NCBI GenBank assembly: GCA_033220425.1
Contig: CM065646.1
Location: 1,185,501-1,249,500, forward strand
Length of the DNA: 64,000 nucleotides
Direction: 5' to 3'
Origin: Lepraria neglecta
Lineage: Eukaryota > Ascomycota > Lecanoromycetes > Lecanorales > Stereocaulaceae
Part shown: piece by piece, positions 24,636 through 52,421 of the stretch
Layout: each line of letters begins with the position of its first letter
How positions within the stretch are numbered: position 1 is the first letter of the stretch
The notes under the pieces: model-generated
Databases searched by the model: none
The model's input: the letters and a program-made list of their open reading frames with translations, nothing else
Told to the model about the DNA's origin: nothing
Translations under genes and position numbers: made by a program

Positions 24636-25191
24636 GAAAATACCTAGGAACCCCTTAGGAACCTTTAGAACTACCGGGACCTTCTATAAGAGTTTCGGGA
24701 ATAATCGGGAAGGAGGACCAATTAGTTCTATCTAGGAAGCCAAACTGAGATATTAAATATCTAGTCGTTAGGAATATCTAGGATAGACTACTAGTCTTCT
24801 TCTAATTCCTTGATATTCTATATCTCTCGGTCCGTAATCTTCCGCTTTTTATCCTTAAGATACTCGTATTATATCTAAAGATATATTAGTATAGTCTAAA
24901 GACGTATAGTTTCCTCTATATAATAAGCTAACTCCTTATACGTAGTTTTTAGTTAAGCCTATACTTCCTTTCGTTCTTTCTTAATACGACGTATTTTAAG
25001 GGGTAATACTATAAGGTCGTATTTCCTATCGCTACCTATATAGTTAGAATACCTATCGGACCCTATACCTATTAAGTACTATTTGCCGCCGGTAATATAT
25101 CGGGAGTATAGTCGTATTATAACTTTGGTTAGCTTACTAGCTAATACCGTTCGGCGGACGATCGGTTTATCTAAATATTTAGTATAACGGG

Positions 25192-25703
25192 TATTACGAC
25201 CCACGTTACCTACTATATATCGTAGGTAGATTGATTCTTAATAGGGATGGAGGTGTTACTAATAAGAGGTGAAGCAGGCTTCAATGATACTAAGCGATCT
25301 GGTATATAATTAGATAATATATATTTAGTGCCTAGCTTAAGAGATCTATCGTATATAACTAAGTATAAGTAAGATACGAAGTTAAGCACGACGCTCCAAA
25401 TAGTAAGCAGTACTCTATATATATAGATATACGAAATCTATGCCAAGCCTTCCTGATCGTACTAATCGCACTGATCGTATCTACGCTCATTGCGACCACT
25501 GCGCTTATCGCTTAATATACCAAGCCCTTCTAATCGCACTGATCGTACTAATCGCACCTGCGCTTATTGCGACTACTACGCTTATCGCTTAATATACTAA
25601 GCCTCTAGGGTCTATCCGAGTCGGATACTAATTCGTCGACTCGAACTATAACGAGCGCTACGCTCCGCGAGCGTATCCCTAATTATATTTCCTAATTATA
25701 ATA
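25192..25703 (-). repeat. 3' LTR of Gypsy-E
   Basis: 512 bp, complete. It contains several copies of the words GATCGCACTGATCG and CATTGCGACCACTGCGC and one TCCGAGTCGGA palindrome. Preceded on the left by ACGGG. Confidence 0.88.
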
Positions 25704-26300: not shown

Positions 26301-29300
26301 TAAAAGGTTCCTAGGTATTTTCGGTATCGTTATACCCTTTCTATTTAACTAGATATTTCTAATTAACCTAATTTAGAATCCTCTTAACCTTAAACTCCGT
26401 TTCTTCTTTAATATTATAATAGAATATCTCTTATAGTAGCGTATTAGAGTCTACTAGTTCTAAGAGTAAGATATAGAATACCGGATATACTTTGGCGTTA
26501 GGTAGTAGTTAGAGTTTATAGTTAACTAGTCCCTTAATCCGCCTAATTAAGAATAGTCTAATCTTAACGTAATCTAGTTTCTTACTTAGTCTCGTTATTC
26601 TTATATTTTTTATTAGGAGGTATACTTTATCCCCCTTTTTTAGCTAAGGAATATTCTTTCTTTTCCTATTAACTTATTCCTTTAACTTACTATTTAAGCT
26701 TTTAATAGATCTTTATATATCCTTATATAAATTCTTTAGCTCGCCTACCTTTACTAAGGCTTTTTCTATATTAGGTCCCTTCCTTAGATCTAGAAATATA
26801 TTTATATTCTTCCCGTAATTAGTAAAGAATAGGGTTAGTCCTATAGTATCTAACCTCTTATTATTATACGCTAGTTATACTATTAGAAGTAGTAAGACCT
26901 AGTTATCCTACTTCTAGTTTATATAATACCTTAAATATACTTCTATTATTTAGTTTGTACGTTTAGTTTATCTATTAGTTTGCGGATAATATACTATTAA
27001 TATCCGAAGTTTCATTCTAATCCCTACTATTAGCGTTCTCTAGTAGTTAGATATAAATAACTTATCTCTATCGGATATTATTAATTTAGGTATACTATAA
27101 TCTCTTATTAGCTTATTAAGTAGTATAAAAGCTAGCTAGTCTACTTTATAGGTTTCTTTAAACGGTATTATAATTATATATTTAGTAAGTTTATCTATAA
27201 TAACTATAATTAAATTAAAGGTATTCTATATAGCTAGGTCCTTTAAAGGTAGTAGTTTAATTATAAAGTCTATTATAATATTATTCTATAGTAACTCTAG
27301 TATAGATATAAACTATATTTATCTATATTTAGTATACCGTACTACCTTATTCTATTAGTACTCGATATATCCTTTAATATATTATTTAATATACGCTCGA
27401 AGTCTTAGCGCCGCGTATCCTCGTTCTAGAAGTTCTATTATCTTAGATACTCTAGGGTAACCTTATAAAGGGTTATTATAGTAATCTCTAATTACTTCTT
27501 TAATATATATATCGAGTAAGTAGGTCTTATTCTAGTATTTAAGTAATACTAAATCCTCTTGATTCTTCCTTAGGTCCGTTACGAATATATTACTATTATA
27601 GGCCTTTATAATCCTATTAATTATATTAGGTCCCTCTATACGAAGGGTCGTAGCTAATACCTAGTATAGTACTAGCGATCCGTCCGCGTCTCTCTTTAGG
27701 ATTAGTCTTTCTATAATATTCTTCTCTACTATATAGTCTAATCGCCGGCTAAGGGTATCTACTTAACTATTATCCTTTCCTAGGGTATAAATTATCTTGA
27801 ATTTATATTAACTTAATAGTTCTAACTATCGAACCTATCTTCTATTTAACTCCTTTATTATTATAAAGATAAGAAGGTTCTTATAATCCGTAAAGATAGT
27901 TAGATCCGAGTAGCTCTCTATATATACTCGCTAGTTTTATAATATATAAACTATAGTAAATAGTTCCTTATCGTATATATTATAGTTCTATTCTACTACT
28001 AATATCTTCCTTAAATAGTAGGTAACTAGATACTACTTTTAGTCCTTTATTTAATATAGATATACTCTAATTATAAGATCCGAGGTATCTATTTCGATAC
28101 GGGCCGGTTTATTAGCCTAAAAGGTATAGAGTACTAGTAGATCTATATATACTTTCTTTAATATATCGAATGATTTCTATTAGTCTTTTCCCAATATAAA
28201 TCTAATATCCTTCTTTATAATATCTATTAGAGATAGTACTTTCTTTAAGTAGCCTTCGATAAACTTCCTATTAAAGTTAGTAAATCCTAAAAAGCTCTAT
28301 ACTACTTTGACGTCCTATAGTATAGGCTATTCTACTATAGCTTTAATCTTATCTAGGCTTATACTAATATCTTCTATACTAACTACGAATCCTAGAAATT
28401 CTATCGACTATTAATAAAACTTATACTTTTCTAGTTTAAGGAGAAGTTTCGCTTATAATAGATATCTAAGGATATCCTATATATATAAAATATATTCTTC
28501 CTTATTCTTAGAATAAATTAGTATATTATTAAGGTATACTATCGCTATTCGATCTAAATATACTTATATAATATTATTATTAAGTACTTAGTAGGTTACT
28601 AGTACGTTGGTAAGTCTAAACGGTATTACTAGATACTTATAGTAGCTATATCTTGTTTAGAAGGTAGTTTTCTATTCCTCGCCTTCTTTTATCCGAATTA
28701 GGTTATATATACCTCTAAGATCTAGTTTAGTAAATATCTTTACTTTACTAAGCCGATCCTATAGCTCCTCTATATTTAGTAATAGATATCTATTCTTAAT
28801 AGTAATATCGTTTAACTTTCTATAGTTAATATATAGTCTTAAGCTTCCGTCCTTCTTTAGTATAAAGAGGATTAGATAACCTACTAGTAATTTAGATTCC
28901 TGAATAAATCCCTTTTTAAGGTTCTTATTAATATACCCGCGAAGTACCTTAAGTTCCTTTTCTAATAATATATAAATAGGTCTAAATATCGGCTATTTAC
29001 TAGGTTCGAGTTCGATCTTATAATCCTATAGCTAGTACCTAGATAATACTTCTATATTTATCTCTTCCTCGAATAAATATACTTATCTACTATATTCCTA
29101 AGGGATAGAGGGTATATTAGTTCCTCTCTTAACTCTTACTTCCTTATCCCGCTAACCTTTACTAGTAACTATAGAGTTAGACTACCTTTTAGTACTATTC
29201 TTATATAAAGCTAAGGTAATATATACCTTAACCGGTCTTCGGTTCGACTTCTTATCTACTATTAAATACTACTAATATATAGGTATAATCCTAGTAATAT

Positions 29301-31466: not shown

Positions 31467-31598
31467 TATTATAACCTACGTTATATACTATATATCGTAG
31501 ATAGATTGATTCTTAATAGAGATAGAGGTATTACTAACAAGAGGTAAAGCAGGCTTCAATAATACTAAGCGGTCTAGTATATAATTAGATAATATATA
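31467..31598 (-). repeat. 5' LTR of Gypsy-E, inner part
   Basis: Matches 25192-25322 and stops abruptly where the Plavaka-like element begins. The rest of this LTR is at 49238-49619. Confidence 0.85.
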
Positions 31599-31740
31599 CA
31601 TCGCGCTTTCCCAAAAGATTATATTATTAGCGTTACAGCTAGTTTTGCGCTATTAGTAGGCCGTATAGCGATTAGGGTCTATATCCTATATCGATTGCGG
31701 ACCGAGAAATTAGCTAAATTAGTAACTCGAGGTTACCGAT
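31599..31740 (+). repeat. Left terminal region of the Plavaka-like element
   Basis: The first about 135 bp are nearly identical to 51797-51930 in the short relative, which confirms the left end. The terminal inverted repeat proper is about 17-19 bp. Confidence 0.8.
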
Positions 31741-32059
31741 AGTAGTATCTACAACCTCAAATTGCTGCGCTAGGCGCCTATAATATTAGTATCAAAAGTT
31801 GCTTTCGTAGACTAACGCTACCATTGCGTATTTGTTCCGGAATGCGAAATATATACGCTTAGGTAGTATATCGACAATATTAGTAGATAAGAAGTTATCC
31901 GAGTCGGATAGTTCGGATATATCCTCTACTATAGTAGGTATATTCGAGTCGGACATCTTATCTAGAATTAACCTATAGGTAGTATTATCCGAGCTAGGCG
32001 ATTTTAAAAGACAATACGATAATCATTTTCATATTATACGTTTAATAGCTATATATTCG

Positions 32060-34930
32060 ATTACTAATAGCTTGATTCCGTTAGGCTTCCTCCCGTCTAA
32101 GCTTTATACTCTATCGATCTATCCTCTATCCCCTCCGTAGTATCCTTAGTAGCCTAGTCCTTAGGTTCTTCTCCTATTAGAATAATATTTAGATATACTA
32201 TTTTATCCTCTATAATCTACCTCTCTACTAACCTACTCTACTCTTCGACGTCTATAATACGATCCTCTTCCTAAAGACTCTTATCTACTCGTAGGCCGGC
32301 CTCCTTCCGTATACGCTTAAAGTCCTATATTAAAAATACCTAGATATCTATTATCTCCGCTGAATTATTACCGAAGGTAAGGGAAGCGAAAAAACTATCC
32401 TAGTTTCCAAACTCTAAATTAGTCTCGTCAAGACCCTCCTCGGGAGATAGTTCTTTAGCCTTAATTTTAGTATTAGCCGATAATATATACCTATAATCGC
32501 TTCTTATATATACCGTATATTCTTTATCATTTCCGTACTCTTCTTCTTAGCCTATTATACTAGTATTATTTATTCCTATCTCCTCTAGAACGCTCTAAAG
32601 GTCCGGTTGATTTTTTAGATCTTCTAGAGAATCCTTGAATATATTAGTAACTAGTAGTTAATAGTTCTTACTATACCTATTTATATAGTAGTAGTCTATT
32701 ATTCGACGATAAAGTAGTCTCGTAACTATCCGCGTTTTGATTTTACCTATATCGTACTATATCTCTATTATATATTCGAATATAGCTCAAGATATTATTA
32801 GTATATAGGTTATTCTTCGAGTATCAGGTTAATTTACTACTAACTAATATACCGTCCTATCTCTTAATCCTATAGGAGCTATATTTATATTCTTCGAATA
32901 TATAATAAAGCGCTATTATAACGAAAATAATAGTACTAGCGGGTAAAGGTTTCTATAGATCCGCACTCTTATACCTAAGTCTAATAGCGCTTATTCTATT
33001 AGAAAAAAAACGCGATATAGACTTATTATAATTATCGGTACTAGAAAATAACCCTTATCTTAGACCTATTAGCTATATATTTCGTTCTCGTTTAGAAAAG
33101 AAGAATACTTATACCTTTCTCTAGATCCGCGAAAGTAAATCGTATATTAAATAGTAGGTTCGATATATTATTCTTCCGGTCCTCGACTGTTAGGTATAGC
33201 TATTCTACTACTATTTTAACGGTTAATCTTATTTTCCTTATTATAAAACTTCTGAATTCGCTTAGGCTATCTACAAGCTGCAAAGATATTAGCTATTACG
33301 CGGCGTTATATAAATAGGTAGAGGTTTAGGAGTAATAACCTTGCGAGCTTCTTTAGGAGTTAGTATATTACCTAAGATATCTAGATCGCCGATAACTTGA
33401 GGCCCCTTCGTTCTTTAGAGCTTAGCCTTCTATTCTCTCTATATTCTTATTATAAGGTTACTTAGAGCTACTAGGTTATATTCTAGCCACGGTGATAGGC
33501 TATCGGTATTATTGCCGCCTATAATCTTGGAGAGGAATATAGGCTTCGTTACGTGGAAAATATATTAATATTCCCGTAAGGATTGGTATCTTTGCGCTTG
33601 GCGACGCCTAGAACTACCCTAAGCGATAGGTCCCGCCGCCTCCTCCGCGGTTACCTCCTTATAGTCGTCTTTAGATTCAATATCCGATATATATATAGGT
33701 GTAGATAACGAAGTCGATAATAGTCTAGGCCTTGTCTTTTTAGATGATGGAACCCGATCGTTAGGATTAGATAATCGTCCCGTAGTCGCGGTACTGGAAT
33801 TCGGCCGCTTGCGCCGTATAGGTAGTACGATACGGGTTGGCTGTCGCTACTTATATTGTATCGACTATAACGATTAGTTATTATAAGACCTATATACTAA
33901 GGTAAATATACTATTAATTCATCCTTTCGTCTGCTAATTAGATTCTCTCTCGATTTTCAATATTTCTTACTAGTAGATTTAAACTTATCAGTTATTGTCT
34001 ATTAGGGCGTCTAGGTAGGTCGTCCGGCACGCTAGCTATTCTACTCTATATATAAAGATATTCGGTTTCATTATTCCTATACTATCGGCTATTTTAGCTA
34101 TATTTAATAAATACGCGTCTCTAATTCATTATTTACCGAGCTGCGTAGGTAGTTCCTAGTATCTATATTCCCTTAAGGACCTCGTTTTATTATATAGTTC
34201 TATATTATTTCCTTCTTTCTATATTAGCGTATTAAATATACGCGTAACGTCGATAGGTAACTTATAGTCTTCTTTTGGGTAATACTCGTATCGCTTTATA
34301 ATACGGTATCGATTCTAGACGTCGATAGCCGCGTCTATTTACGCTGTACGGTTAATAGGTTATATCTATTATTATACACTAATCGTACTTATAACGGAGA
34401 AGCCCATCTTTTCCGTCTCCTAAATATAGAGTTATCCAACGGACCGAATATAGGAGTATAGGGAAGTTATACCCCTATAACGATAGTAGGTACTAGTCTC
34501 TTCGCAGGGCTGGTTATAGGGTTATTAGAAGATATTTCGATATCCTTAACGCTAGTTATCTTTAAAGAGACCTCTTCTTTATTTTTTTTTTAGAGATATC
34601 CTTACTAAGGTTACTATTACGTCTTCGACGTTTCCTAGGCTCTACTACTCTGTCGTCCCCTTTAGTACTTCTCTTAGGTTCTAGCTACCTTTCTTTAATA
34701 GCCTTAATCTACTAATATATTAATATATAGAATAAGTTACTCGGTTCGAATCGTATCTTTCGCTTGTTCGCTTTAGTCTCCTAGGCTTTTCTAGTAGCTA
34801 CTAGTTATTCTCCCTTTATCTTAGCTATTATTAGAAGATCTCTATTATCTATCTAATATATATATAGATCTTTACTAGTAACAAGGTAGTATAAGGTATT
34901 AAGGAGTATAATCCACGACGATATAGCTAG
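32060..34930 (-). pseudogene. Plavaka cargo ORF 1 (unrecognised, RIP-damaged)
   Basis: Reading the minus strand gives long protein-like tracts whose only stops are TAG/TAA at positions where RIP of CAG/CAA or TGG is expected. The N-terminal part (about 34840-34560) is basic, with a KRRRR cluster like a nuclear localisation signal. A middle tract (about 34330-34020) reads DAAIDVQNRYRIIK and continues as mixed helix-forming sequence. A central tract lies near 33650-33280. The C-terminal part (about 32600-32060) is acidic (many Glu/Asp). Frames change between tracts, so introns or indels are likely. I do not recognise a domain. It is the leftmost gene of the element and convergent with nothing obvious. 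Confidence 0.35.
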
Positions 34931-35139
34931 TTATAGGTAGCTAGACGGGCGAGGTTCTTAGGGGAAGAAGGCGAAGGTTTTTAGAAAGGAATAGGCTTCT
35001 TTAGCGTATTATTATCGTGTTATTTTAATTAATATAATATTAATATAAAATCGAGTTAGCTTAAAGACTATTAACTAAGTTAGATAGAAACTTAGCCGAG
35101 TCGGATAAAAGTCTATCTGAGTCGAACGAAATTTTCCTA

Positions 35140-35760
35140 CCTTTTCGAATAGGTTGCTACTAGGACTATATCTCTAGCTATAGTTCTCCTACGTATAACG
35201 AATATCGCCGTTTCTTCTATATCCTCGACGAGTATACGCCGCCTCCGCCCTATTGGCCCGGGACCTCAAGACTTTAGATACTACCTACTCGAGTATCTAT
35301 CGATGAATATATACGGAGCCGGACTCACTAGATTCGCGTTAATAATATATATTTTGCCGCCGGCTCTTGAGTTGTATAGGTAGGATATAGAGTTACGTTA
35401 TCAGCTTAACCGATTAAATTAGTTCTTCGACTTAGTTAATAACGATTAGATACCTTCTTCTATTTATAACACGTCCTATAAAGAGAATCTCTACTAGTAG
35501 ATATATATTGAGTTAGCGGAACTATATCCTCTATAGTAGTAACGGCGTTTGGATTTGTTAGAGAAGACGAATCTAGGTTAGGAAAAGCGGCGGGTAGTAT
35601 TAGCTAGGTCTTTATAGCGGGATTCTAGGATATAAATATTATATCGGTAACGTTGAGTTAAATAGTATAGTTTCTCTAGTCTCTAATTCGAACGACGAGG
35701 TCTACTATTTACAATATTTAAACTAGTCCTTAAATTTACTACTAGTAATACCTATAGATT
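35140..35760 (+). pseudogene. Plavaka cargo ORF 2 (unrecognised, + strand)
   Basis: The + strand reads a Tyr/Pro-rich start (about 35180-35270, with PPPPYWPG) and then, in another frame, a Gln/Leu/Arg-rich helical tract (about 35365-35700) that looks like a coiled coil. Stops are of the RIP type. The change of frame near 35360 could be an intron or an indel. The opposite strand is less protein-like here. No family recognised. Confidence 0.25.
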
Positions 35761-35799
35761 GATTCTATTATATTATATCTACTCTTACTAAGAGCTTTC

Positions 35800-37930
35800 T
35801 ATCTACCTATCTAGATAATAATTAAATCAAGATCCCTTTACCTTATCTAGAAATGTACCGTACTCGTATACCTTCTATCTTTGCTATTACTACCGAACGA
35901 CCCGCCTATAGTATTAAATTCTATAGTACTTTATCTAGTCTATATCTATATTTATACTTCTAGAGGTACGGGTAAGGGTAATACCGGTTTCAAGAATATA
36001 GTTCGTAGGGGGAATAAAGTGATAATGGTTATCTCCTTAGTATATCTATACGAATAATTCATCTCGTTTCCCGGAAGGTAAGACTGAGCCACGCTATAGT
36101 TATTTATTAGGACAATACCTTTTAAACTACTAGAGTAAGGTTAATACGAAGCCAAGGCGAAATAGCGGAAGAGCTATAGACCTACTATCGCTAGAATATA
36201 TATAGTAGTAGATAGCTTGGTAATTATAGATAGTTATTGCGGTCTTCCGACGATATCCTCCCTTAGTTTAATAATTAAATCCTTTAATATAACTAACTTC
36301 GGACTATTATTAATAAAATATTCGATATAATAGATATAGATACTAGCTAGCGGGTATTTAGTCTAGTCTTCTCTTAGATTAGCTAACTCTATAAAGTTCG
36401 TGCAACTCTTACCGTCGTTATATAAATCTCCCCCTTCGAGCTTATCCGTATATAGAGATAGATTATCGAGCCGAGCGAATCCTAGAAGGCTTGGGACTAT
36501 AGTAGCGGCGCGTAGTTCATATACACGTTTGAAGTAGTTGGTAGTCGTTGGCGCAGGTATCTCCTTGCTAGCCTTGCGAGCAATTATATATTATCTAGTA
36601 TATTTTACTTTCGCTTCGTCTTAGATCCTTTAATCCTCGGCGCGAAGAGCTATATTTTATACTGGCGAAGGCGGGTATATAATATAACGAATCTCGTAGG
36701 GAGGTAGTTATACTAGATCGGTAGTTCTAGAGATATCTTGAGTATATAGCGTTCGCTTTATGTCGATTATCTTCGTCTACTATTACAACTAATTACCTAC
36801 TACTTTCCCTAGTATAATAGTAAGAACGATACCTAACTTCGCTACGCTAATATTCCGGGTAGCGCTATTCTTGATATACGGATAACTAACATTCCATTTA
36901 TAAGCCGATAGATATATATCGTAATAACTCCGTAGCTTTAATCTCTCTAGCGAGAGATACTTATTATAATAAGGCGACGTTTCGAATTATTAGATGATTT
37001 TATATATATGGATTTCGATCTAGATAGAGTTAGACGTTAGCGTTGCCCGAGTCGAATATCTATATCGTCCGAGTTAACTAGAGTCCTTAATAGAAGTAAT
37101 AATTTAGTTTAGATATCCCTAAACTAGAATCTCGCCCGTAGATAGCTCCCCCTATCAGAAAGCCTACTATCTTATCTAAGCCGCGTAGTATAGCTAATAA
37201 ATAAATAGTACGATCTTCTTTATTTTACCGTTAGGGGCTATAATAGATAATAACCTACGGAGGTTTCGTGTATTCTATATAGACTAGTTTCCCTTCTATA
37301 GCTAAAACAATAACTCTATATACTACTACATTTTCTAAGACTATTACGGACAGTCCTCTACCTTAGTTATATTAATACTAGGGTAGTATTTAGTAGTAAG
37401 TAAATAGTAAGGTAGAGGTTAAAGTACTTATATCCTATCGCGATCCTCCTATTCTAATACCTCTAGATCTTTCGTAGCTACTCTAGCTACTACTACCCTA
37501 TCTATCTCGATATTATATAACTTCGGAACCCTACTATTATAGGCCTTACTAACCTTTAACGCCTTCTCCTCGTCCTCTTCTATAGTATCCCCTTCCTACT
37601 CTTACTCCTTCTCTTCCTAATTACTAGTATAGCTACTATTATTTATATCGGAATAGATAAGTATAGGATCGTTTAGAGGCCGGGTAGGAAATACTAGTAG
37701 GCTTACTTAATTAAGAGGGAGAATTTATAAGGCTTTAGGGCGGTGAATTTAGTAGAAGAGGTAGTAGAGTCTTCGTGTAGAGGATTCTATATATTATAGG
37801 TTATATTCTTAGGTCGCACCGTAAGAGAAGAATATCTAGTCTAGTAAGGTTATATAGAGGTATAATAGGGATAGTAATAATAGGAAGAATAAAATATAAA
37901 GAAGTAGAGGCCCTTTGCTAAGTTAGAACG
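35800..37930 (-). pseudogene. Plavaka cargo ORF 3, copy a (unrecognised, duplicated gene)
   Basis: This minus-strand coding tract has a second copy at 39750-42870 in the same orientation. Towards the start (about 37600-37180) the two copies share an acidic lead and a tract containing PLPYYLLTTKYYPSIN. Towards the end (about 36610-36370) both share a tract reading FKRVYELRAATIVPSLLGF followed by an acidic Asn/Asp/Gly segment. Copy a lacks a middle section of several hundred bases that copy b has (about 40620-41300). Stops are of the RIP type. I do not recognise the family. It is not obviously a TET/JBP oxygenase, which some KDZ elements carry. Confidence 0.4.
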
Positions 37931-37969
37931 AAGAAGAATACTAGAGTATATAATTCAGTAGTATCGGCG

Positions 37970-38990
37970 TACTGTAATTAACTAGGTTTACTAATATACC
38001 GCGGAAACGGACGTAAAGTATATCTATTATTCAATATTTTACGCGGGCCCGCCGTTTTACTAGAGTATAGTTAGTAGGAGTACGATCGAAGTAAAGTATA
38101 AGATATATACCTCGCAGGCGCGTCTTAATATAAAACGAGATAGGATTCTCGCCTATATTATATATCTATAAGGTAGCCGCCTTGAATTTATAGGCGTGAT
38201 TAACTTCGATATCGTTTTTACTAATATAATAAAGAATTTAGTCGGTTAAGCTATTATAGATACCGTCCTTACGTAAGACCTCTTTAAATATTCTAAATTC
38301 GATCTTATCTAATATAATACTAGCTAGAGGTTTTTTCTCCTTAATAATATCGGAGGCGAAGAAAAGCGTATTCGCCGTTATCTCTATCGACCGGATATAG
38401 AATTCTATTTCACTAAAGATAAGCGGACGCGCTATATATAGAGTACTATCCGTAGAGAGAGACGATATAGTACGCCTTCTATAATTACGATAGTGATTAT
38501 AGGTATTATTAATCTTTCTAGCTATACCTAATTTATAACTCTCTAGCTAGGGTTAGAGGATTCTAGATATGAAAACGGAGGGAAATACTATTTCTAACTA
38601 CTATAAGGCCTCGCCGAGTTTAGCCTAGTTCTCCGGTATCCCTAGGGATATACTAACGATATATCTCCTTTCTATCTCTTTCTTTAATACTACTCGAATC
38701 TCCTTATAGTAGGCCTATTTAACTATAAGGCTACGCGAAATAACTAAGACTATCTAATTCCCGGGGTTAGTATTTTCGTAGAATTCGGTAGAAGGTAAAG
38801 AGGCTAGAGAGGAGAGGAAAATATCGGCGGCGATAGCTACGGGCTTGTACTAGTATTCTATAGCGGGTATATATATAATATATAGAGTATTAATCGATAT
38901 GTCGATAGTAAGAGAAAGGAGTATAGGAAAGGATTAAAAGGTCGATATATAATATATAAAGAATAATTCCGTACTAAGCCTATAGTAATT
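37970..38990 (-). pseudogene. Plavaka cargo ORF 4 (unrecognised)
   Basis: One minus-strand frame is open across about 1 kb apart from RIP-type TAG/TAA. It begins near 38860 with an Ala/Ser-rich segment (IAADIFLSSLASLPS), has a Lys/Glu-rich middle (VVLKKEIERRYIV) and a mixed alpha/beta-like C-terminal part (LRGIYLILYFDRTP). It ends near 37970, just upstream of ORF 3 copy a, on the same strand. No recognised domain. The long frame with synonymous-looking damage suggests it was a real gene when RIP began. Confidence 0.45.
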
Positions 38991-38999
38991 AGCGTGTAA

Positions 39000-39740
39000 T
39001 AAGCGATGTCCGACTCGAATACCAAGTATATCAAGCGCTATTCGACTCGGATATCGAGAGTTATCCGACTCGAATACTATCTAATACTTAATATTATTCG
39101 ACGCGTAGGCTATTTCCTATATAGTATCTATATTAAGTACGAGTATAACTACTTGACTTTCGAGTAGGTTTCTCCCTTTATTTAATAATAGTCTTAGTTA
39201 AAAGAGTCTATATTAATAGAAGGGTATTATAAGGAAGATTATAACTTAAGATAATACGTTATAAAGGAGTATAGTAGCGTATATAGTTCGTATTAAATAC
39301 GATTATAATCTAGCAAGTTAGGGCTATAAATTATATTCCCTTTTACCTATAGCTTATATTTAGTATATAAGTACGTAGTATATCTAGATTTTAGTGGCGG
39401 ATATTTAAGGAAGATTATAGCGCGAAATATCTACTAAAGATAGGAGAAAGCAAAGGGGAATAGCTAGTAATCTAAGTACTTTCAAGTCTTCCCGAACTAG
39501 TATAGATTAGATTTAATATTACTATAGAAGGGTAATAAGAGTCTTATATCTATCTTATACGAAGTTAAAGTACCGCCGAGTAGAAGAAAAGAAACCTATA
39601 AAAGCGCGCTATTGCTTAGCTAGAAAGATCTAGCTTATTTATACGCCTATTACCTTGTTATATTATCTCTACTCTATTTAAATAATACCTTCTAATCTAC
39701 TCTATATTCATCGTCTATAATAAAGTAGTAGTTATATATC
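39000..39740. other. Intergenic stretch in the Plavaka-like element
   Basis: RIP-altered sequence with several TCCGACTCG-type words (39006-39080) and no convincing coding tract. Confidence 0.4.
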
Positions 39741-39749
39741 TTTAGATTT

Positions 39750-42700
39750 CGCTAAGATAACCGAACTACCCGCCTATCGCACTAAATATTATAGAATTAT
39801 ATCCAGTCTACATCTATATTTATACTTCTGAATATATAGGTTAGGGTAATACTAGTTCTAAGGATACGTTTCGTAGAGATAAGGAAGCGCTTATTATCCT
39901 CTTCTTGGAATAGCTATATATATAACTTATCTCGCTTCTCGGAAGGTACGGTCGAGCTATACTATAGCTATTTACTAGGAAAATACTTTTTAAACTACTA
40001 GAGTAAGGTTAGTATAAGGTTAAGGTAGAATAGCGGAAGAGATATAGACTTACTACTACCAGAATATATACGATAATAGGAGAACTGGTAAATATAACCA
40101 GTTTCTCTGGTCGCCCGTAGATATCTTCCCCTAGCAAGCCGATTAACTCTTTAAGTTTTACTAACTTTGATATATTACCGGTAAGTTCATCGATATATTT
40201 AGTATAAATACTATCTAGCGGTATCTTGGCCTAATTCTATATTAGGCTAGCTAACTCTACAAAATCTATATAACCCTTTCCGCCGTTATATAAAGGCCCC
40301 CCTTCAAGCTCGTCCTAAATAAGAGTAAGGTAGTTACGCCGAGAGAATTCTAGAAGGCTTAGGATAATAGTAGCAGCGCGTAGCTTATAGGCGCGTTTAA
40401 AGTAGTTATTAATTGCTAGCGTAGGTATCTCCTTGCCAGCCTTGCGAGTAATTATATATTCTCTAGTATATTCGGCTTTTACTATATCTTGGATCCTCTA
40501 ATCCTCAGCGCAAAGAGCTACCTTTTACTCTAAATTAAGTAAGTATATAATATAACGAGTCTTGTGCGGAGGTAGCTTAATAAGCTTAGTAGTCCTATTA
40601 ATATCTATAGTTATAGGTATCCGCTTAATTTCGATAGAGTTTAAGATAGCCTTTATATCTGCGATATTCTTATTATTCTCGCTCTTATTAACCGGATTCT
40701 TTCGCTTTCGGTAGCTAGCGGTTAGTTTCCTAATAACCTCGACTTCGTTATAAGTTATATATCGATACTCTTTAACGGCGTACTACTAAGGCTGCTCGAT
40801 TATATAGATTATAGCTAAGTAGTTAGTTAGGTCGTGTATCTACGGTGTAGTAGAGAAACCCTATACCTAGGGTAAAGATAATCGGTATGTTTTTATACGC
40901 CGATTATCTATAGTATTCTACTTATTCTCGTTATCCTCTAGTATTTTTACTAGGACTTAGGTACTAATCTCATCCTTAATACTAAGGACTATCTTGGGAT
41001 ATTTACCCTTTACTATTCTTATCTTATAGAATTCGTTAATAAAGATCTAGCTAATACGGAAGTTATAGACGAATAGAGACTTAGAGTCCTATAGTACTTC
41101 CTTAATATACCTATTATACGAGCCCTTAGTTATAAGGAGTAGAATACGCTCCTATCTAGGTTTAGATTTTCTATCCTTTTTATATTAAAGTAGTTTAGTA
41201 TTTTCCGATATAAGTAGAGTAGCGTTAATATTATTATATATTTTACCTATATAGATATAGAAGTACCGTAGCTTTAATATTAGATATTAAGTATTAATTA
41301 TCTTCGTCTACTCTTATAACTAGTTATCTATTACTTTTACTAGTACGATAATAAGAATAATACCTTACTTTAGTGTGCTAGTTAAATAGGCGGCGCTTTT
41401 CTTGATATATGGATAACCGATATCCTATTTATTAGCAGAGGGATATATATTATTACTACTCTATACCTTTAATTTCGAGGGTAGGAGTGTTAGAACTCTC
41501 GGTTCTGACAGGACTGTCCTGTAGGACAAGACACTACAGACAGGACTAGCAGCTGAAGCGATGAGCGCAACGAGCGCCGTGCGCTCATGTCGCTCAAGAA
41601 TGATGAGCGCAATGAGCGCCGTGCGCTCATAACGCTCATGGATTGCTTGGCAGGATTTCCTATGTCTACATATACGGGGCTTTGCCCGTTGTTTGGAACA
41701 GGGTGTTCAACTTGATCAATCTTCCTGGTACTCCTTGCACTATACTTTACTAGTTATCAACATAGAACGCATTGACTACCTTCAACCACAAAGACTGCCA
41801 TTCTACCTGAGTGACTCCTCTCCCACAGAAGCATAAGACATCTACACCCCTATACGTTCGGTTATCGCACCGTTAGGTAAACGATCGGACGTGAGGGTCG
41901 TAACAAGGAGATACTTAGTATAATAGATTGACGCTTTAAACTATTCGAGATTTTTATAATCCTATTTATATATTTCGAAAACCTTATACTATCGTAAGGA
42001 GAGTTAATACTTAAGGATATATATAATAAAAATCGTTAGAGTCTAGTTCGAGTCGGATATTAGTATTGTCCGAGTTGATAGCAGGTTTTATTAAAAGCTA
42101 GGAATAGATACGAACCTTACCAAAGCCGGGATCGTCCCTATTAATACCCCCCTCTACTAGTAAATACGCCGGCGTATCCAAGTAGCGTAGTAGAGTTAAT
42201 AAATATATAGTATAATCTTTTTTATCTTGCTATTAGGGGCTATAATAGATAATAACCTACGGAGGGTTCGTATATTCTTAATAGACTAGTTTCCCTTCTG
42301 CAGTTAGAACAATAACTCTATATACTACTACGTTTTCTAAGACTATTATAGACGGTCCTCTATCTTGGTTATATTAACGCTAGGGTAGTATTTAGTAGTA
42401 AGTAAATAATAAGGTAGAGGCTGAAGTACTTATATCCTATTGCGATCCTCCTATTCTAACGCCTCTATATCTTTTGTAGCTACTCTAGCTACTACTACTC
42501 TACCTATCTCGATATTATATGACCCTAGAGTCCTGCCTATATAGGCCTTATTGATCTATAACGCCTTCTGCTCGTCCTTATCTATTAAATTCCCTTCCTT
42601 TCTATTATTCTCTTCCTTATTATTTATACTACTACTACTATCCAAGCTAGAGCTAATATCTATAGGCTCCTTTAGATTCCCGGTAGATAGACTAGTATAC

Positions 42701-42870
42701 TTATTAGTAAGAAGGGAAGGATCGACGAAAGGCTTTAGGGTAGAGGGTTTAGTAGAAGAGGTAGCAGAGTCTTTGCCTAGAGGATCCTATATATTAGGGG
42801 TTTTCCCTTTAGGTTCTATCGTAAGAGAAGAATATTTTAAGTAGTAGGAGAGGGTAAAACTACCTCGGTA
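39750..42870 (-). pseudogene. Plavaka cargo ORF 3, copy b, split by a young solo LTR
   Basis: Second copy of the gene at 35800-37930, same strand. The 42236-42530 segment matches 37205-37500 closely, and 39790-40500 matches the other end. It has an extra middle section (about 40620-41300) that reads as a mixed Lys/Glu-rich tract (VYNFRISQIFINEFYKIRIV). The solo LTR 41488-41905 interrupts it near a stretch where both copies carry TCCGAGT words, possibly an intron or spacer. RIP-type stops are present throughout. No family recognised. Confidence 0.4.
41488..41905 (+). repeat. Young solo LTR without RIP
   Basis: 418 bp, beginning TGTTAGAAC and ending GTCGTAACA, with exact 5-bp duplication AGGAG at 41483-41487 and 41906-41910. 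It is rich in CA and TG and stands out from the surrounding RIP-altered DNA, so it arrived after the RIP episode or was never a RIP target. Its interior (GCTTGGCA, then a CATATACGG region and a GTTCAACTTGATC region) resembles, in order, parts of the Gypsy-D/E LTR, so it is a relative of that family that is still close to its original sequence. Confidence 0.9.
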
Positions 42871-42889
42871 AGGTTAATTTAGATAGGCC

Positions 42890-43830
42890 GTATTACCCTC
42901 GATAGATACTATTATACCTATTAGTTAATATCCTAACTATTAATTAATATAGTATAACTAACGGAGTGCCCCTCGCATAATATAAAGCTCGTAGCGCCGG
43001 TAACCACGTGAATATATATCGCGGATAGTATTTTGTAGATCTTCGTTTATAGTTACCTCTATAATCCTATTAGATATATAGATAAGGGTGCTCCCCCGGG
43101 TATTATCTTCGGCGGTCTAGAATTTCTTAGTTTCTAGGAACTTAATTAGAGTATTGTAACTAAGTTAGTCCTAGAGCTAGTTAGTGTTAGTAAGCGAAGT
43201 ATTATATATAATATACTATAGTTAGACAAGATGGAATTTATTATCGCGCGTATAACCGATTCTAAGGATAATATAAGGCGGGTAGGTATTATCTAGGGCT
43301 GGAGCTAGTGCAAAGAATAGTCCAGTATAATCGGGTTGCTTAGTATAGGTATTATCGTGTCTAGGCTTTTTTAAACTAAACGAGTCGTAAGACTCCTCTA
43401 AGGGTCGTTTACTAGTATATTAGTTAGCTACTCTAGGTACTTTATTAAGTAGTCTTGCGAATATATATATTACTTCGTCTCTAAAAGGTAGTATATAGTT
43501 AGGTAGAATAAAGTTAGTAGTAACGGAGTTAAGGACCTTGGTGAAGTCCTAGCTAGAACCTCGAAGATTTTCGCCCTAAATAGCGGTACCCTATAGGTAG
43601 TCTTTAAGTACTTGACGGAGGGTATTAAATAAGCTATTACTATACTATAAGCCTCTACGGATATTAGGGAGGTTCTATAGGATTCTAGGCGGATTACTAG
43701 ACTTTGGCCTACCAATAAGCGTATAGAAATTGGCCTCGGTTAGCGTAGGCTCTAGCGTTATATCGACCTAAGGGTCGATTAGAGAAGGACCGGCTATATT
43801 AGATAATATTATAGATAATTCTAATATATC
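42890..43830 (-). pseudogene. Plavaka cargo ORF 5 (unrecognised)
   Basis: On the minus strand a tract at about 43800-43470 (with LTEANFYTLIGRPKSSNPP) is followed, in another frame, by about 43440-42900 (with SFSLKKPRHDNTYTK and LFFALAPALDNTYPPYI). Stops are of the RIP type. The frame change near 43460 could be an intron. It lies just upstream of ORF 3 copy b, as ORF 4 lies upstream of copy a, but I see no clear similarity between ORF 4 and ORF 5. No recognised domain. Confidence 0.38.
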
Positions 43831-43839
43831 TATAATAAG

Positions 43840-44590
43840 AAGAATAATAATAGGACGAATAAAATAGGGAGAAGTTAAGGATTCTTCGCTAAGTTAGAGG
43901 GATAAAGCGGGTAATACGACTAGTAGGGTCTATACCGGGTTTTTATTTATAGTAGCGATTGGTTAGTAGTTAGTAAATATAATACTAGTAAGGTAAATAC
44001 GTTACGAAATAGTTTAATACTTAATATAATTAGGTAATATAGATCCTTCTCTATAGAATAGTATATTAGAGTAGTTATAAGTAGATAAGTTTAGCTATTA
44101 AAAGATTGAAAGTAGCGAGCTTTAATATAATAGATAAAGATATTAATTAAAAGCGGAACTTATATATATATAGTACGTAGAAAGCGAATAGCTAATTTTA
44201 AACGTACTATATCTAGCTTTATACTTAATACCTAATATCTAGTAAAGATAGAGTATTAAAACTTATTATCTACTTATAAAGATTAATTAGATTTCTTCTT
44301 CCGTTCTTCGAAATATAAGTCTTAATCAAGTACTCTATTATAAAAACAATCTAAGTTCGACTCGGATATATATTTTGGTAATAGGGGCATATACCGCAAG
44401 GTTTGTAACTAATTATATTTCCTAATGAGATAAGTAACCGGGGTGTTTATTAAATATATTATATAGAAAGAAAATCCCCTTAAACCATCTATTAATTAAT
44501 ACCTTCTATAGGACGATACTCTACTATATATATATTATAATTTAATTAATAGTAACGGTTAAAAATAGGCTATATAAGGCGACGTAAGGA
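43840..44590. other. Divergent intergenic region before the Plavaka transposase
   Basis: Separates minus-strand ORF 5 from the + strand transposase, so it would hold both promoters. A TATATAAGG word at 44570 is a possible TATA-like element. No coding tract is visible. Confidence 0.35.
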
Positions 44591-44899
44591 TAGATTTATC
44601 CTAACCTATAGCGGGTTAGCTTGAAGGATCTAGTAGCGAATATATTTACTAATACCTACCTAGACGTATTAATCTCGATAATAATACCTCTATATTACGC
44701 CCGAGCCAGATGGATCGATAGTGTAAATATTACTAGAAGCAGTACAGTAGCGGAAGCGGCCTAACTAGGTATCTACTACGCTGTAAGGGCCGGGACCCTA
44801 ATTGGACGTGTAGGAGATAGGCACGCCTCGACGAAGATAAAGTTGAGGGCCCTATTTATAAACGCTAAAGAGACGAGGTCGACGTGATCGGCGATAGTC

Positions 44900-47800
44900 C
44901 CCGTGAGGGCGAAGGTAGATAAGTCCCCTAGGAGGACCTGACTATTTTAATAGATAACGATACTCTAGGGCGATTACTTAAACTCACCGACTCTACTAAC
45001 GAGATCTGGTACCAGTAAGACAAGCTAGATATAGTACTCGATTAATCGAAGTCGATAACGGCGTCAAGTGCTATAGGTACTATCTCTACCTTGACCGTTA
45101 GCTCTATAGAGTACTACCTATAGGAGCGAGGTACCGGGAGGCCTTTAGAGGAAGAGGATATAACCCTAGCCGAGTCGTTGTCTATACCCCTGTCCGAGTC
45201 GATATCCGAGTTGATACCCGAGTCGAACCCGGACTGGCACCCTTTCTATTTAGAAGCTAATTATACCCTAGCTTTATAGATATATAACGCCCGACTATCT
45301 AGCGGTATAATAGACAATTTCTTTAAAGATACTCGATTACGACCTTTCCACGGACCCTATAGCTTTAATAGCGCTCTATAACTAAAAGCTAAGCTATATA
45401 CTATAAAGTATTCTGCTACTGCTAGTAGATAGTCTCGGCAAGCGTTTAGTATCCTATCGATTTAACCGGACGAGACGACTAGAATATATTATATACTCTA
45501 CTTCGATATAATAGGTATAATACGAACTCTTATCGGATATAAACCTTTTAATTCGAGTATTAACTATATACTAATACGCTAGCGAAACCTCGACGGGGGT
45601 CTAATCGTTAATAAGATATATATAGCCCGCTGGTAGTAGGAGATACAAGATATACTCCCTAATAGCTTAATAGTAGTACCGGTTATAATATCGTTAGATA
45701 AGACCTATTTATTACGGATACACGGAGATTAATAGGCGTAGCCAGTCTATATTACTATTGGTAACCTCGATCGAGGTATTCGGCGGGTACAGGTTCGGCT
45801 GGGGATAATATTGCTTAGACTAGTACTATTAGTCTATAATAGTATAAAAGCCGAGGTATATTACTATACTATAGGGCTTATAGTCGAGGGTAAGCCAGCC
45901 GAAATACGGATCTTACTTAATATACTAATAATATTCTTTTAAAGTACTTAAGGAGCTAGCGCCGAAGGGGATCCTTATTATATATATAGACGGACGAATA
46001 TAATAATACTACCTAATACTCGCGTCTATACTAGGCGACTACGAGGAACAAGTTTTAATAACCTCGATCAAGAGCGGTAAATACTATCTAGTCTACTTAG
46101 TACCGCTAAATGAATAGGAACGACTATATCCTGAAAAACCGTATCTAAAGTAAATACCTAAATAGACTATAGAGTAGTTATAGATGCAAAAAACGTATAA
46201 TAAGAATACGCCTAGGGTGTTACTAGATATAATAGTATATAACCGGCCTAACTTTATAGACGGCTACTTCGTAGTTAACGTCTACTAACTATAGATATTT
46301 AATATATTATACTAATTAATAGTTAAAGGGCTATTAAACTACCTTCTAGACTGGCTTAGAGAGTATATCGGAGAGGGACGAATAAAGCTTAAGGTATAAG
46401 CCTTAATCGACGCCCGGTTTCGAGCTATACCTAAATTTACTAAGCTGAGGCGATTTCGGGAGTTTAGTAAGCTAAGCTAATAGATAGGAGAGGAGAGTAA
46501 AGAGATATTACGGATTATAATACCCGTCTTCGCTCCTCTATTATCCGAAAAAAACCTAGATATACTATATACGGGACAAGCTATTATTAACTTTATTATA
46601 TTTATAAGATACTAATCCTATAATAAAGCGATACTAGAATATATAAACGTAGCGTTAGAAAGGATTAATCTACTTAAGGAGGTATTTTGAAAATATAGGC
46701 TAGTTAATAAGAAAACGAGCGAGTAAACTTTCAACTTTCCTAAATTCTATAGTATTAGTTATTATATTAATATAATTAGATACTACGGTCCGCCGGATAG
46801 ATATAGTACCTAAGCCTCGGAAAGGGTATATCTAATATTACTAAAGAATTACTATAACCGAATAAATAAGTATAAGGATTACTAGGAGCAATTAATAGAA
46901 TATAACGAACGCTATATTAAGTTAATAATTATACGGGATATTAAAAATTTCTAAGAGACGGAGCCTATATTACTTAGTTAGAGGAGAAAATAAGAAGATA
47001 AGAAAAGTATAAAGGCCGGGGTCCTTCTAGATCTATACTAACTAGAATAGCGAGTAGACGCGGAAGAGCGCTATATATTAAGATACCTATATAAATATAA
47101 TAGTCGTTACTGGCAAACGGCGAGAGATATAGCTGAATGGCTAAATATAGCTGGGTTTCTCTAAAGCCTGGCTGCGTTTCTTAAGGCGCACCGAGCGAAA
47201 ATACTAAGCAGAGGTAGTATAACCTCGAACCTAGATATTAATAGAAGGGAGGCAGACTGCAGCTGGGTTAAGAGCTACCCGGTCTATATCTATTCGGGCC
47301 TCGTATATTGGAAGACTATAGGAGAGGATTCCTCTAATTTAGGACGTCTCTATAAGGATTTAGTAGTCTATAGACCTTATAAATATTCGCAGTATTTTAT
47401 CTAGTGTAGAGATTATATATAGGTCCGAGAATAAGACTATAAGAGTCGAAACCCGGAAACTATATAGGAGGGAAAGTTAGTCGGTAAGGTCTTAGTTATT
47501 GTAGAGGTAAAGGATCTTAGTAATAGGGACTTTAAGTAATAATCTACTTATATATAGGCTACCCTTATAGAAGTCTTTAATTATTAATATCTAGGGTAGG
47601 TATAAGATTACTATAGAATGGTCGAAGTTAAAAAGGTACGGGCGTCGCTTATATTTAATCCTCGAACGATAGGCGCTCGCCGCTTCTATAGACTACTAAA
47701 TATCGAGTAAAGTACTTATCTAGTACCGGGAACGGTTAGAGGAAAAGAGATATTCTATATTAATAGTTTCATCGACTAGGACTAATATACTACGATATAT

Positions 47801-48045
47801 TACCCTAAATTCCTAATAAATAATTCTAAGGCAGCGCGACGAATCTACGCTAAATTCCTACTAAATCCTTCTTAGGTAACGCTATAAAGCTAATTAAAAA
47901 CCCTTAAAAGGAAGAGAGATAATACTATAAATATATCTAGGTCGATAGAGCGGAAGAGACGCTACTACTAACCGCCCTCGCCGCGTCTAAAGTTAAGGCT
48001 TTAGTCTTAAGGAAAACCTCTAATATAAAGAACTAACCTATAGTT
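44900..48045 (+). pseudogene. Plavaka-type (KDZ) transposase, RIP-damaged
   Basis: This is a DDE-type transposase expected to cut and paste the element at its inverted ends. In order I see a Ser/Glu-rich lead (about 45170-45230), then the conserved Plavaka start (DWHPFYLEANYTLAL, then GIIDNFFKD with RPFHGPYSFNS) at about 45230-45400. The first catalytic Asp lies in VPVIISLDKTYL followed by HGD and PVYITIGNLDRGIRR (about 45675-45790). A Cys/His-poor middle follows, then the typical C-terminal tract FYINSFID with YYPKFLINN and ARRIYAKFLLNP (about 47750-47880), and a basic tail (KRKR). Interruptions are mostly TAG/TAA at expected Gln/Trp codons, plus frame changes. The start codon is uncertain. 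No functional protein is possible. Confidence 0.75.
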
Positions 48046-48379
48046 TCAATTACCGCAGCGGTATTAATCCTCTCTTCGGCATATTTAATTATAGCTATAT
48101 TATATTAGTAGGATATATAGTATCTTGCGCGTATAATATTTACTTACTTTAGTATCGAGTCTACGGCCCTCGCACGTTACTAATATTCGGGTACTTCGGT
48201 AAGCTAAGGAGTAGGGAGGTTATTAAGCTCGCGGTATTGGATATAAAGTCTATCGGGGAAGACAGGGAGTAAATTCGTTAGATATTGAGTATCTATAGCG
48301 ACACTTTACTGAAATAATAGCGACGAGACCGTAAACTACGAGAAGAAATATTAAGAAACGTCTAGCTAAATATTTATCC

Positions 48380-48490
48380 GACTCGGACAGGGTAAACCTA
48401 AGTCGGATACTACTCGGATAGTATAAAACCCGAGTTAGATACTACTCGGACAGTATAAAACCCGAGTCGGATACCAATTAGACAAGGGCA
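48380..48490. repeat. Cluster of TCCGA/TCGGA palindromic words near the right end
   Basis: Several copies of CCGAGTCGGA-like words within about 100 bp, with TAAAACCCGAGT repeated twice. Clustered subterminal motifs are typical binding sites for transposases of CACTA-like elements, but binding here is inference. Confidence 0.45.
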
Positions 48491-48952
48491 AAAAAGGGCG
48501 AAATATATGCGCCCCTGATCTACTAGAGTTTTGCTAGGTACCGCTGATAGTTCGGTAACTAGGCGTTGTAACTCTCTATCTCGGTCGGATTAGCGGATAA
48601 TAGGTCGTTATAGAATCGAGGAAAGCGTAGTTAAATAACCCGTGAAGAAGTTGAAGAAGGATTAGTATAAACGCGAGTTAAACTTGTATTGATATTACTA
48701 ATAACAAGCTTTTATATACTGAAGGAGCTATCGGTAGTAGCTATATTTCAAACGGATTGTATATATAGAAGACTTTATTTAGATTCGACTACCTACTTAC
48801 ATCTTGTATAGAAGATATATAGCTACTAATTAGTAGAAATATATAGACTATATAAGAAGTAATCAATTATAATAAAAGAAAACTGGCAGCTATATATTAG
48901 TAGCGTTGTATTATTAATTGAGCTAATAGCTGGCTAAACGTATAATGGACAT

Positions 48953-49083
48953 GCTAATTGGTTAGATATTATACTAATAGTAATATCTAATTGCTAATTA
49001 GTTAGACATTATACTAACAGTAATATCTAATTGCTAATTGGTTATACATTATACTAATAGCAATATCTAATTGCTAACTAACC
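48953..49083 (+). repeat. Three tandem 40-bp subterminal repeats
   Basis: Units begin GCTAATTGGTTAGA (or its variants) at about 48953, 48993 and 49033, each ending TAATATCTAATT, followed by a partial fourth. They lie about 150-280 bp inside the right end of the Plavaka-like element. Confidence 0.85.
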
Positions 49084-49237
49084 TAACATCGTTAAATCAG
49101 CAGTATTGAGTTGCAGATCGAGCTGATTTGATACTATTAGTAACATTGAGTTGCTAATTCCGCTGAACGTAACTATCAGCCCTACCGGCGCGCTCGGCAA
49201 CTCGGGATTTCCCAGCAACTTTTGGGAAAGCGCGATA

Positions 49238-49619
49238 TATTTAGTACCTAGCTTAAGAGATCTATTATATATAACTAAGTACAAGTAAGATACGAAGTTA
49301 AGCACGGCGCTCCAAGTAGTAAGTAGTACTCTATATATATAGATATACGAAATCCATGCCAAGCCTTCCTGATCGTATTGATCGCACTGATCGCACCTGC
49401 GCTCATTGCGACCACTGCGCTTATCGCTTAATATACCAAGCCCTCCTAATCGCACTAATCGTACTAATCGCACCTGCGCTCATTGCGACCACTGCGCTCA
49501 TCGCTTAACATGCCAAGCCTCCAGGGTCTGTTCGAGTCGGATACTAATTCGTCGACTCGAACCATGACGGGCGCTACGCTCCGCGAGCGCATCTCTAATT
49601 ATATTTCCTAATTATAACA
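49238..49619 (-). repeat. 5' LTR of Gypsy-E, outer part
   Basis: Continues the LTR from 31598 and matches 25321-25703. It ends in TAACA followed by ACGGG. It keeps more CA/TG than the left LTR. Short open frames on the minus strand here only reflect the repeats in the LTR. Confidence 0.85.
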
Positions 49620-49679
49620 ACGGGGTAGTATAAAGGATAGATAGTTTCTCGGGACGAGAAATCTAGGAGAGGGAGCTAA

Positions 49680-50109
49680 TATTATAAGCCGTAACCGTAC
49701 TATATTAAACGTATAGTTATCGAACGTTATTAAACGGGTTTAGTATAGAGTACGAGTCGAACGAATTAGTATCCGACTCGGGTAGACCCTAAAGGCTTAG
49801 TATACTAAGCGATAAGCGTAGCGCGATCGGTACGATCGGTGCGATTAGGAATGCTTGGCATGATTTTCATATATCTATATATACGGAGTACTACTTATAG
49901 CTTGGAGCATCGTGCTCAACTTCCTTACTACTTATTTATACTTAGTTATATACGATAGATCTTCTAGATACTAAATATATATTATCTAATTATATACTAG
50001 ACTAGTCTAGTAAATAACTAGAAGTCTATTTCATCCTCTTGTACTTAGTAGTACCTCTACCCCTATTAAGATTATATTTATACGATACCGGTACGTACGG
50101 TTCGTAATA
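49680..50109 (+). repeat. 3' LTR of Gypsy-D
   Basis: Resembles the Gypsy-E LTR in the opposite orientation, including the internal GCGATAAGCG-type words and the end GTAATA. It follows the polypurine tract at about 49665-49679. Confidence 0.75.
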
Positions 50110-51796: not shown

Positions 51797-52421
51797 CATC
51801 GCGCTTTCCTAAAAGATTATATTATTAGCGTTACAGCTAGTTTTGCGCTGTTAGTAGGTCGTATAGCGATTAGAGTCTATATCCTATATCAATTACGGGC
51901 CGAGAAATTAGTAGGATTAGTAACTCTAGTTACTATTAGTAACTCTAAGGTATTATTAGTAACTAAATAGCACCTAAAAATTATCCCCGAAGACATGCGA
52001 CCGCGCGCAATAATTACAATACTACGACGCCGTAACTAAACCCCTAGGGTAGCTACGAACATTACCCCCGCGAGAATTTGGGCCCAATCGCACGATTCCG
52101 GGGTCCGTTTTCAGCTGGTATTAATAGGGCTCTAGGGGAGTCGCTATCGTCGATGGCGACGATTATAGAAAATTAACATTTTGCTTAGTTATTAATTATA
52201 TAATTCGCTAAATACTTGCTAATCCTGCTAATCCTACTATTAGTAAGTCGGAGTTACTAAATACGCTGAAATCGCGCTATTAGCGGGCGCTATTTGCTGA
52301 TTACGCTGAAATCGACCTATTAGCGGGCGCTATTTACTGATCCTACTAATAGGCTATTTTTAGCCCTATCCGCGCGTCTAGCAAATTAGAAGTTCTTAGT
52401 AAGATTTGGGAAAGCGCGATA
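51797..52421 (+). mobile_element. 625-bp non-autonomous relative of the Plavaka-like element
   Basis: Begins CATCGCGCTTTCC and ends GGGAAAGCGCGATA, the same inverted ends as 31599-49237. The first about 135 bp are almost identical to that element and the last about 60 bp are similar. The flanking bases are TT on both sides (51795-51796 and 52422-52423), against TA for the large copy, so a 2-bp duplication is likely. It has no coding capacity, and parts of the interior (51960-52200) escaped strong RIP. It sits exactly at the right end of the hAT remnant. Confidence 0.8.
52262..52342 (+). repeat. Two tandem 40-bp repeats in the short Plavaka relative
   Basis: Both units start ACGCTGAAATCG and contain TATTAGCGGGCGCTATTT. 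The same unit length as the subterminal repeats of the large element at 48953-49083, though the sequence differs. Confidence 0.8.

Follow-up and report, generated by a model that had tools for sequence, protein, structure and literature searches.

Enzymes of the TET/JBP type carried by transposons are viewed as countermeasures to DNA-methylation silencing. Fungal PlavakaB elements, in the sections of Kojima (2025, PMC12730594) drawn on here, encode a Plavaka transposase, duplicate 2 or 3 bp of their target, have ends reading CATCA..TGATG and, in some members, carry an extra TET/JBP gene, so that a TET-carrying Plavaka is already published; the same sections take Plavaka out of KDZ (Kyakuja, Dileera, Zisupton) and into the CACTA-like CMCT group. 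KDZ elements are likewise fungal DNA transposons able to bear an extra DNA-modifying gene. Starships are giant cargo-bearing transposons of Pezizomycotina, classified by a tyrosine recombinase. A further point of comparison is X3X3R8, a 26-kb repeat of Parastagonospora nodorum degraded by repeat-induced point mutation (RIP), which Hane and Oliver (2010, PMC3017866) read as an endogenous host gene cluster with Rad5/SNF2-like helicase genes in tandem, Rad6/ubiquitin-conjugating genes and others of unknown kind. Here we analyse a stretch of 64,000 nucleotides from Lepraria neglecta (hereafter the window; contig C1, positions 1185501-1249500, in a genome of 42.0 Mb on 11 contigs). It holds a 17.2-kb element that is, in our judgement, likely a Plavaka (CACTA-like, CMCT) transposon of a RIP-active filamentous fungus, with accessory genes as fixed parts.

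Positions 31599-49237 of the window are a single copy of this uniform cut-and-paste DNA transposon. Reading from the left end, a DUF6532-like gene, a shortened SNF2-like gene, a nameless tract and an SNF2-like gene all run leftward, and the last stands head-to-head with a Plavaka transposase that runs rightward to the right end. Two of the features below correspond to tracts singled out in a first-pass annotation of the window, which had been made from the DNA letters alone.

31599-49237, no strand: whole element, window copy, 17,639 bp (17.2 kb minus the later insert)
31599-31617, + strand: left terminal inverted repeat CATCGCGCTTTCCCAAAAG, 19 bp
32869-33072, - strand: DUF6532-like domain, placed in the window by alignment, part of a gene with broken frames within about 32.2-34.9 kb
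35892-37927, - strand: second, shortened SNF2-like copy, without motifs II-III and without a counterpart of the domain at 42943-43335
38115-38933, - strand: protein-like tract between the SNF2-like copies (first-pass tract 37970-38990)
39650-43898, - strand: SNF2-like helicase gene with N-terminal region, extent approximate
41483-41905, no strand: later 423-bp insertion confined to the window copy, resembling a solo long terminal repeat (LTR), with a 5-bp duplication AGGAG and ends TG..CA
42943-43335, - strand: domain upstream of the SNF2-like helicase, found at 45 genome loci (first-pass tract 42890-43830)
44620-47884, + strand: Plavaka transposase gene, broken, in two frames (PF18759)
49219-49237, - strand: right terminal inverted repeat, inverse of CATCGCGCTTTCCCAAAAG with 1 mismatch (last base G>A)

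The first-pass annotation had described inverted ends splitting a repeat that it took for a Gypsy LTR, and the window itself supplies the unsplit version, since 25191-25701 is an uninterrupted copy of the sequence broken at 31598/49238. The half-matches to this unsplit copy share 2 bp, TA, the target duplication of the window copy. The 2-bp flanks are identical in 11 of the 14 copies that we read, as against 39 of 182 pairings of flanks taken from different copies; of the three unequal pairs, CA/TA fits a RIP change and AC/TA and CT/TA do not. With up to 3 mismatches allowed, the element end has 4 matches in the window compared with a mean of 0.01 in shuffled sequence, and the 18-nt end, searched genome-wide with at most 1 mismatch, has 156 (88 forward and 68 reverse), the reversed-pattern control giving none in either direction. 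The intact repeat copy and the one at 31466-31598/49238-49617, which the transposon splits, lie on the same strand about 6 kb apart, a spacing compatible with paired LTRs of a single retroelement.

The 14 copies comprised the window copy, 12 chosen because about 17.2 kb separates their ends, and one (L043/L044, contig C9) chosen by its left end and transposase. All 14, including the 12 selected for their spacing, are collinear from end to end with every tract present, which upholds the first-pass proposal that a large Plavaka transposon takes its extra genes along with the transposase; neither copies devoid of the tracts nor separate elements were met among them. Their lengths run from 17.17 to 17.29 kb, the window copy measuring 17.64 kb owing to its 423-bp insert. 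A 131-amino-acid query from the middle tract matched 45 genome loci, a count that excludes two further matches of low significance (E 5e-4 and 0.2). The copies differ chiefly through CpA-directed RIP: over the 91 pairs transversions averaged 15.5 (range 1 to 29) and transitions 1182 per 17.2 kb, and relative to the best-preserved copy, L043/L044, C-to-T changes affect 66% of CpA, 18% of CpG, 1.5% of CpC and 0.5% of CpT sites. The near-identity of some 45 loci, taken with these transitions, suggests a recent burst followed by RIP. In every copy read (14/14) the genes are broken. Inside the element the window copy has no stop-to-stop frame longer than 102 amino acids, a single 133-amino-acid frame crossing the right end; because its frames are so short, we deduced the genes from better-preserved copies, placing X at stops. 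L043/L044, the best preserved of the copies read (GC content 0.43), sits on a small contig of 101,624 bases.

The transposase places the element. As the first-pass annotation had recognised, it is of the Plavaka type: PF18759, the domain of the Plavaka superfamily, matches the window copy at 45466-45816 on the + strand (E 5.0e-14, 56.2 bits) and L043/L044 in two parts (E 2.3e-31 and 1.1e-12), above the cut-off of 26.3 bits. The 2-bp duplication, seen in 11 of 14 copies, falls within the 2- or 3-bp range of PlavakaB, and the termini, CATCG..CGATG, likewise start with CATC and finish with GATG, agreeing with the PlavakaB ends in four of five letters. The element differs from PlavakaB in the fifth end letter and in its extra genes, which are SNF2-like and DUF6532-like; moreover, the Plavaka families in the consulted sections of PMC12730594 come from Agaricomycotina, whereas the present one resides in a genome with CpA-directed RIP. 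The first-pass label KDZ is not supported, as those sections assign Plavaka to CMCT, treat the KDZ transposase as unrelated and give 8-bp duplications for Zisupton, in contrast to the 2 bp found here; the KDZ cargo, too, is TET/JBP and not SNF2. A Plavaka transposase and paired inverted ends likewise set the element apart from Starships.

In the better copies, 39650-43898 reads as an upstream domain, a linker and an SNF2-like helicase, in which what we take to be helicase motifs I (GFGK), Ia, II, III, V and VI follow one another in order, as judged by eye. The C-lobe (39650-40524, 173 amino acids) gave 26 PDB matches at E <=1.3, the best at 0.0072; 23 of them carry names that we take to be SNF2-type (Rad54/SNF2, SNF2, STH1, ISWI, ERCC-6, Rad26, ATRX, Fft3 and others), and the other three are a DNA repair protein, a WD40 repeat-containing protein and a ribosomal one. 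A longer piece of the gene returned seven PDB matches, four of them SNF2-type by name and a further one the same DNA repair protein. The observation that several distinct minus-strand tracts are present, one of them twice, also stood: the SNF2-like gene is duplicated in tandem, 35892-37927 matching 39760-43898 in blocks that are 72-77% identical, with the C-lobe match of the shorter copy at 36144-36650. Two gaps separate the blocks, one of about 656 bp spanning motifs II-III and one of about 1 kb holding the upstream domain, and because these parts are gone the shortened copy, judged from its sequence, cannot be a working ATPase. The upstream domain at 42943-43335 probably belongs to the SNF2-like gene, as it shares the frame of the stretch leading to the helicase; it has no Pfam match at E <=10, and its two PDB matches are at chance level.

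A second type of SNF2 gene lies beside a different Plavaka. A genome search with PF00176 found a weak match on contig C2 (L048), where the DNA reads ..GILADEIGFGKV..; compared with L048 itself, the profile gives E 0.01 and 15.4 bits, under the cut-off of 24.9. The motif I region of L048 has 27 PDB matches, 26 of which are named as SNF2-type remodellers, the best at E 0.048. A 149-amino-acid piece of L048 had four strong genome matches (C2:5953902, C6:960595, C6:1696710 and C8:2073214). Each of them (4/4) has a Plavaka transposase of another kind 2.8-6.4 kb away on the other strand, and the two genes stand head-to-head, an orientation also seen in the 17.2-kb family; the four loci are copies of one family and not independent. 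The remaining two matches are weak and fall at sites where the PF00176 search lists undamaged SNF2 genes. We infer that the L048-type genes lie inside these other Plavaka elements. The two SNF2 genes are not close, because the C-lobe query of the 17.2-kb family finds nothing at the L048-type loci at E <=0.001.

The DUF6532-like gene likewise recurs near other Plavaka transposases. PF20149 (cut-off 24 bits) matches copy L035/L036 with E 1.8e-5 and 25.1 bits, and L043/L044 with E 0.063 and 13.6 bits, under the cut-off. Genome-wide, 18 matches at E <=1 divide into seven in the 17.2-kb family, all at one offset of about 1.3 kb, and 11 elsewhere, every one of the latter above the cut-off. Seven of these 11 are divergent from another Plavaka transposase at a distance of 8.4-17.1 kb; the corresponding chance expectation of about 0.004 per match assumes independence, which copies of one family do not have. 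At one of these loci the right end (L047) agrees with the left end of the 17.2-kb family in its terminal 20 nt and is 89% like it over 115 bp, so that the ends are shared by one or more DUF6532-bearing Plavaka elements of a different kind. DUF6532 and Plavaka are also both among the domains listed for two Ganoderma species in one paper.

Several results weigh against reading these genes as fixed SNF2-like and DUF6532-like parts of a Plavaka element. Pfam and NCBIfam profiles give no SNF2 match in the 17.2-kb family, where the genes are riddled with RIP stops, and the C-lobe matches in PDB are individually weak (best E as above), several of them being constructs of one protein; we therefore speak of an SNF2-like gene and not of a member of the family. 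The N-lobe alone had three PDB matches, none to SNF2. A profile of the 14 RIP-damaged copies compared with two host SNF2 proteins was not significant: with hmmsearch the top eight rows were all shuffled hosts, with no real host among them, and the probability from hhalign was 0.3%, its best alignment nevertheless placing motifs V-VI in register. Transversions between the two SNF2-like copies show no third-position excess and hence no sign of selection on the duplicate, and we dropped purifying selection between them. DUF6532 is weak within the 17.2-kb family, with seven of about 45 copies matching at E <=1 and two above the cut-off; four of the 11 outside matches have no Plavaka in divergent arrangement, and the 20-kb limit on the DUF6532-Plavaka distance was fixed after the distances were known. 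Finally, no ends were found for the other elements bearing an SNF2 gene.

On the Plavaka reading, the transposase would bind the ends and move the whole 17.2 kb, and the SNF2-like ATPase might remodel chromatin at the donor or target site, aiding expression or transposition, or might alternatively aid repair after excision. Such a function of the cargo, which is suggested by the arrangement, would parallel the one proposed for the TET/JBP enzymes of other fungal transposons. A passive history is possible too, if in our view doubtful: the SNF2-like genes may have been captured from the host or another element before amplification, then duplicated and left to decay without ever having been of use. 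Such hitch-hiking accords with the loss of motifs II-III from one SNF2-like copy, with the lack of a third-position signature, with the breakage of all 14 copies and with the fact that RIP was not prevented in copies bearing the SNF2-like gene. It sits poorly with the presence of a different SNF2 gene head-to-head with a different Plavaka transposase at 4/4 sites (one family, not independent), and no separate host progenitor of the cargo is conspicuous among the matches, the ends having been checked for some of them only.

Nested transposons, two or more separately inserted elements mimicking one, are a far weaker contender. When neighbouring forward and reverse ends less than 45 kb apart were paired, using 98 of 100 listed exact ends, at least 31 pairs resulted, with 18 at 17.1-18.0 kb, four (4/31) at 3.5-6.6 kb, too short to contain the full element, and nine at 18.4-39.7 kb, as though holding inserts; the window copy does contain its later 423-bp insertion. 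Set against this, 14 of 14 copies from separate sites run collinearly through all tracts, and we regard nesting as highly improbable. Kinship with X3X3R8, as an element or an amplified gene cluster sharing one origin, would add to the Plavaka interpretation and is compatible with it; we consider it unlikely, if worth naming. Both are RIP-degraded and share a plan, for the consulted part of PMC3017866 describes an SNF2-like helicase in two tandem copies, of which the second is incomplete and diverges by 10-20%, followed by a reversed third part that includes the ubiquitin-conjugating gene. That repeat is, however, 26 kb long against 17 kb here, and the same part of the account mentions no inverted ends or transposase. 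A ubiquitin-conjugating gene like that of X3X3R8 was not found at the elements among 39 UQ_con genome matches inspected by eye, a weak negative, since a RIP-damaged gene could escape.

The Plavaka transposon with fixed accessory genes thus remains our preferred account. That SNF2-carrying Plavaka elements form a general kind of fungal transposon with its own remodeller, with DUF6532 as a standing partner and repeats like X3X3R8 among their number, is a tentative proposition that we think rather unlikely to hold in full. Were it true, SNF2-Plavaka elements of RIP-active fungi would correspond to the transposons that carry TET/JBP in mushrooms and rusts. An SNF2-like gene on one Plavaka and SNF2 beside another would make the anti-silencing idea testable at the level of chromatin, and DUF6532, a fungal domain without known function, gains a likely home. 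The element also suggests that RIP-degraded repeats filed as duplicated host genes merit re-inspection for inverted ends and transposases. In the open-licence literature searched, no paper combined Plavaka with SNF2, and none combined KDZ, transposase and SNF2.

The first-pass annotation had recognised none of the tracts and had pointed to Pfam searches; these, with the PDB comparisons, allow two genes to be named, DUF6532-like and SNF2-like, besides the transposase, while Pfam left the tracts at 37970-38990 and 42890-43830 unmatched. Within the former, 38115-38933 has fewer stops, averaged across copies, than any other frame and is open in L043/L044 in pieces of 144 and 126 amino acids; it has no Pfam match at E <=10. 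We abandoned the idea that tract 37970-38990 supplies the shortened SNF2-like copy with its N terminus. The position of a 68-bp match puts the tract outside the duplicated unit; its comparison with the region upstream of the other SNF2-like copy gave a BLASTP E of 3.0 and mixed outcomes against shuffles, the local alignment score being reached by 14 of 500 and the global score by none of 500, and relatedness was not shown. TET/JBP cargo, raised in the first-pass annotation, found no support: a whole-genome search with PF12851 at E <=10 gave no match, a weak negative, as the like search with PF00176 also missed the damaged SNF2-like genes of the 17.2-kb family. Rfam found nothing in the window at gathering score.

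A small relative of the element lies to its right in the window:

51797-52421, no strand: non-autonomous element, 625 bp, whose ends match those of the 17.2-kb element with 1 and 3 mismatches; 2-bp duplication TT

At one end, 349 bp of it match L047 at 89%, and this derivative may also have been moved by such a Plavaka transposase. Immediately right of the 17.2-kb element, a tandem 77-bp repeat (49356-49509) and inverted arms (49294-49923) lie partly within the split repeat. Elsewhere in the window, 19806-21646 and 26413-28253 form an inverted pair of 1.8-kb repeats that are 81% alike, and members of another repeat family occur at 16.4-17.4, 21.6-23.1 and 60.4-61.4 kb.

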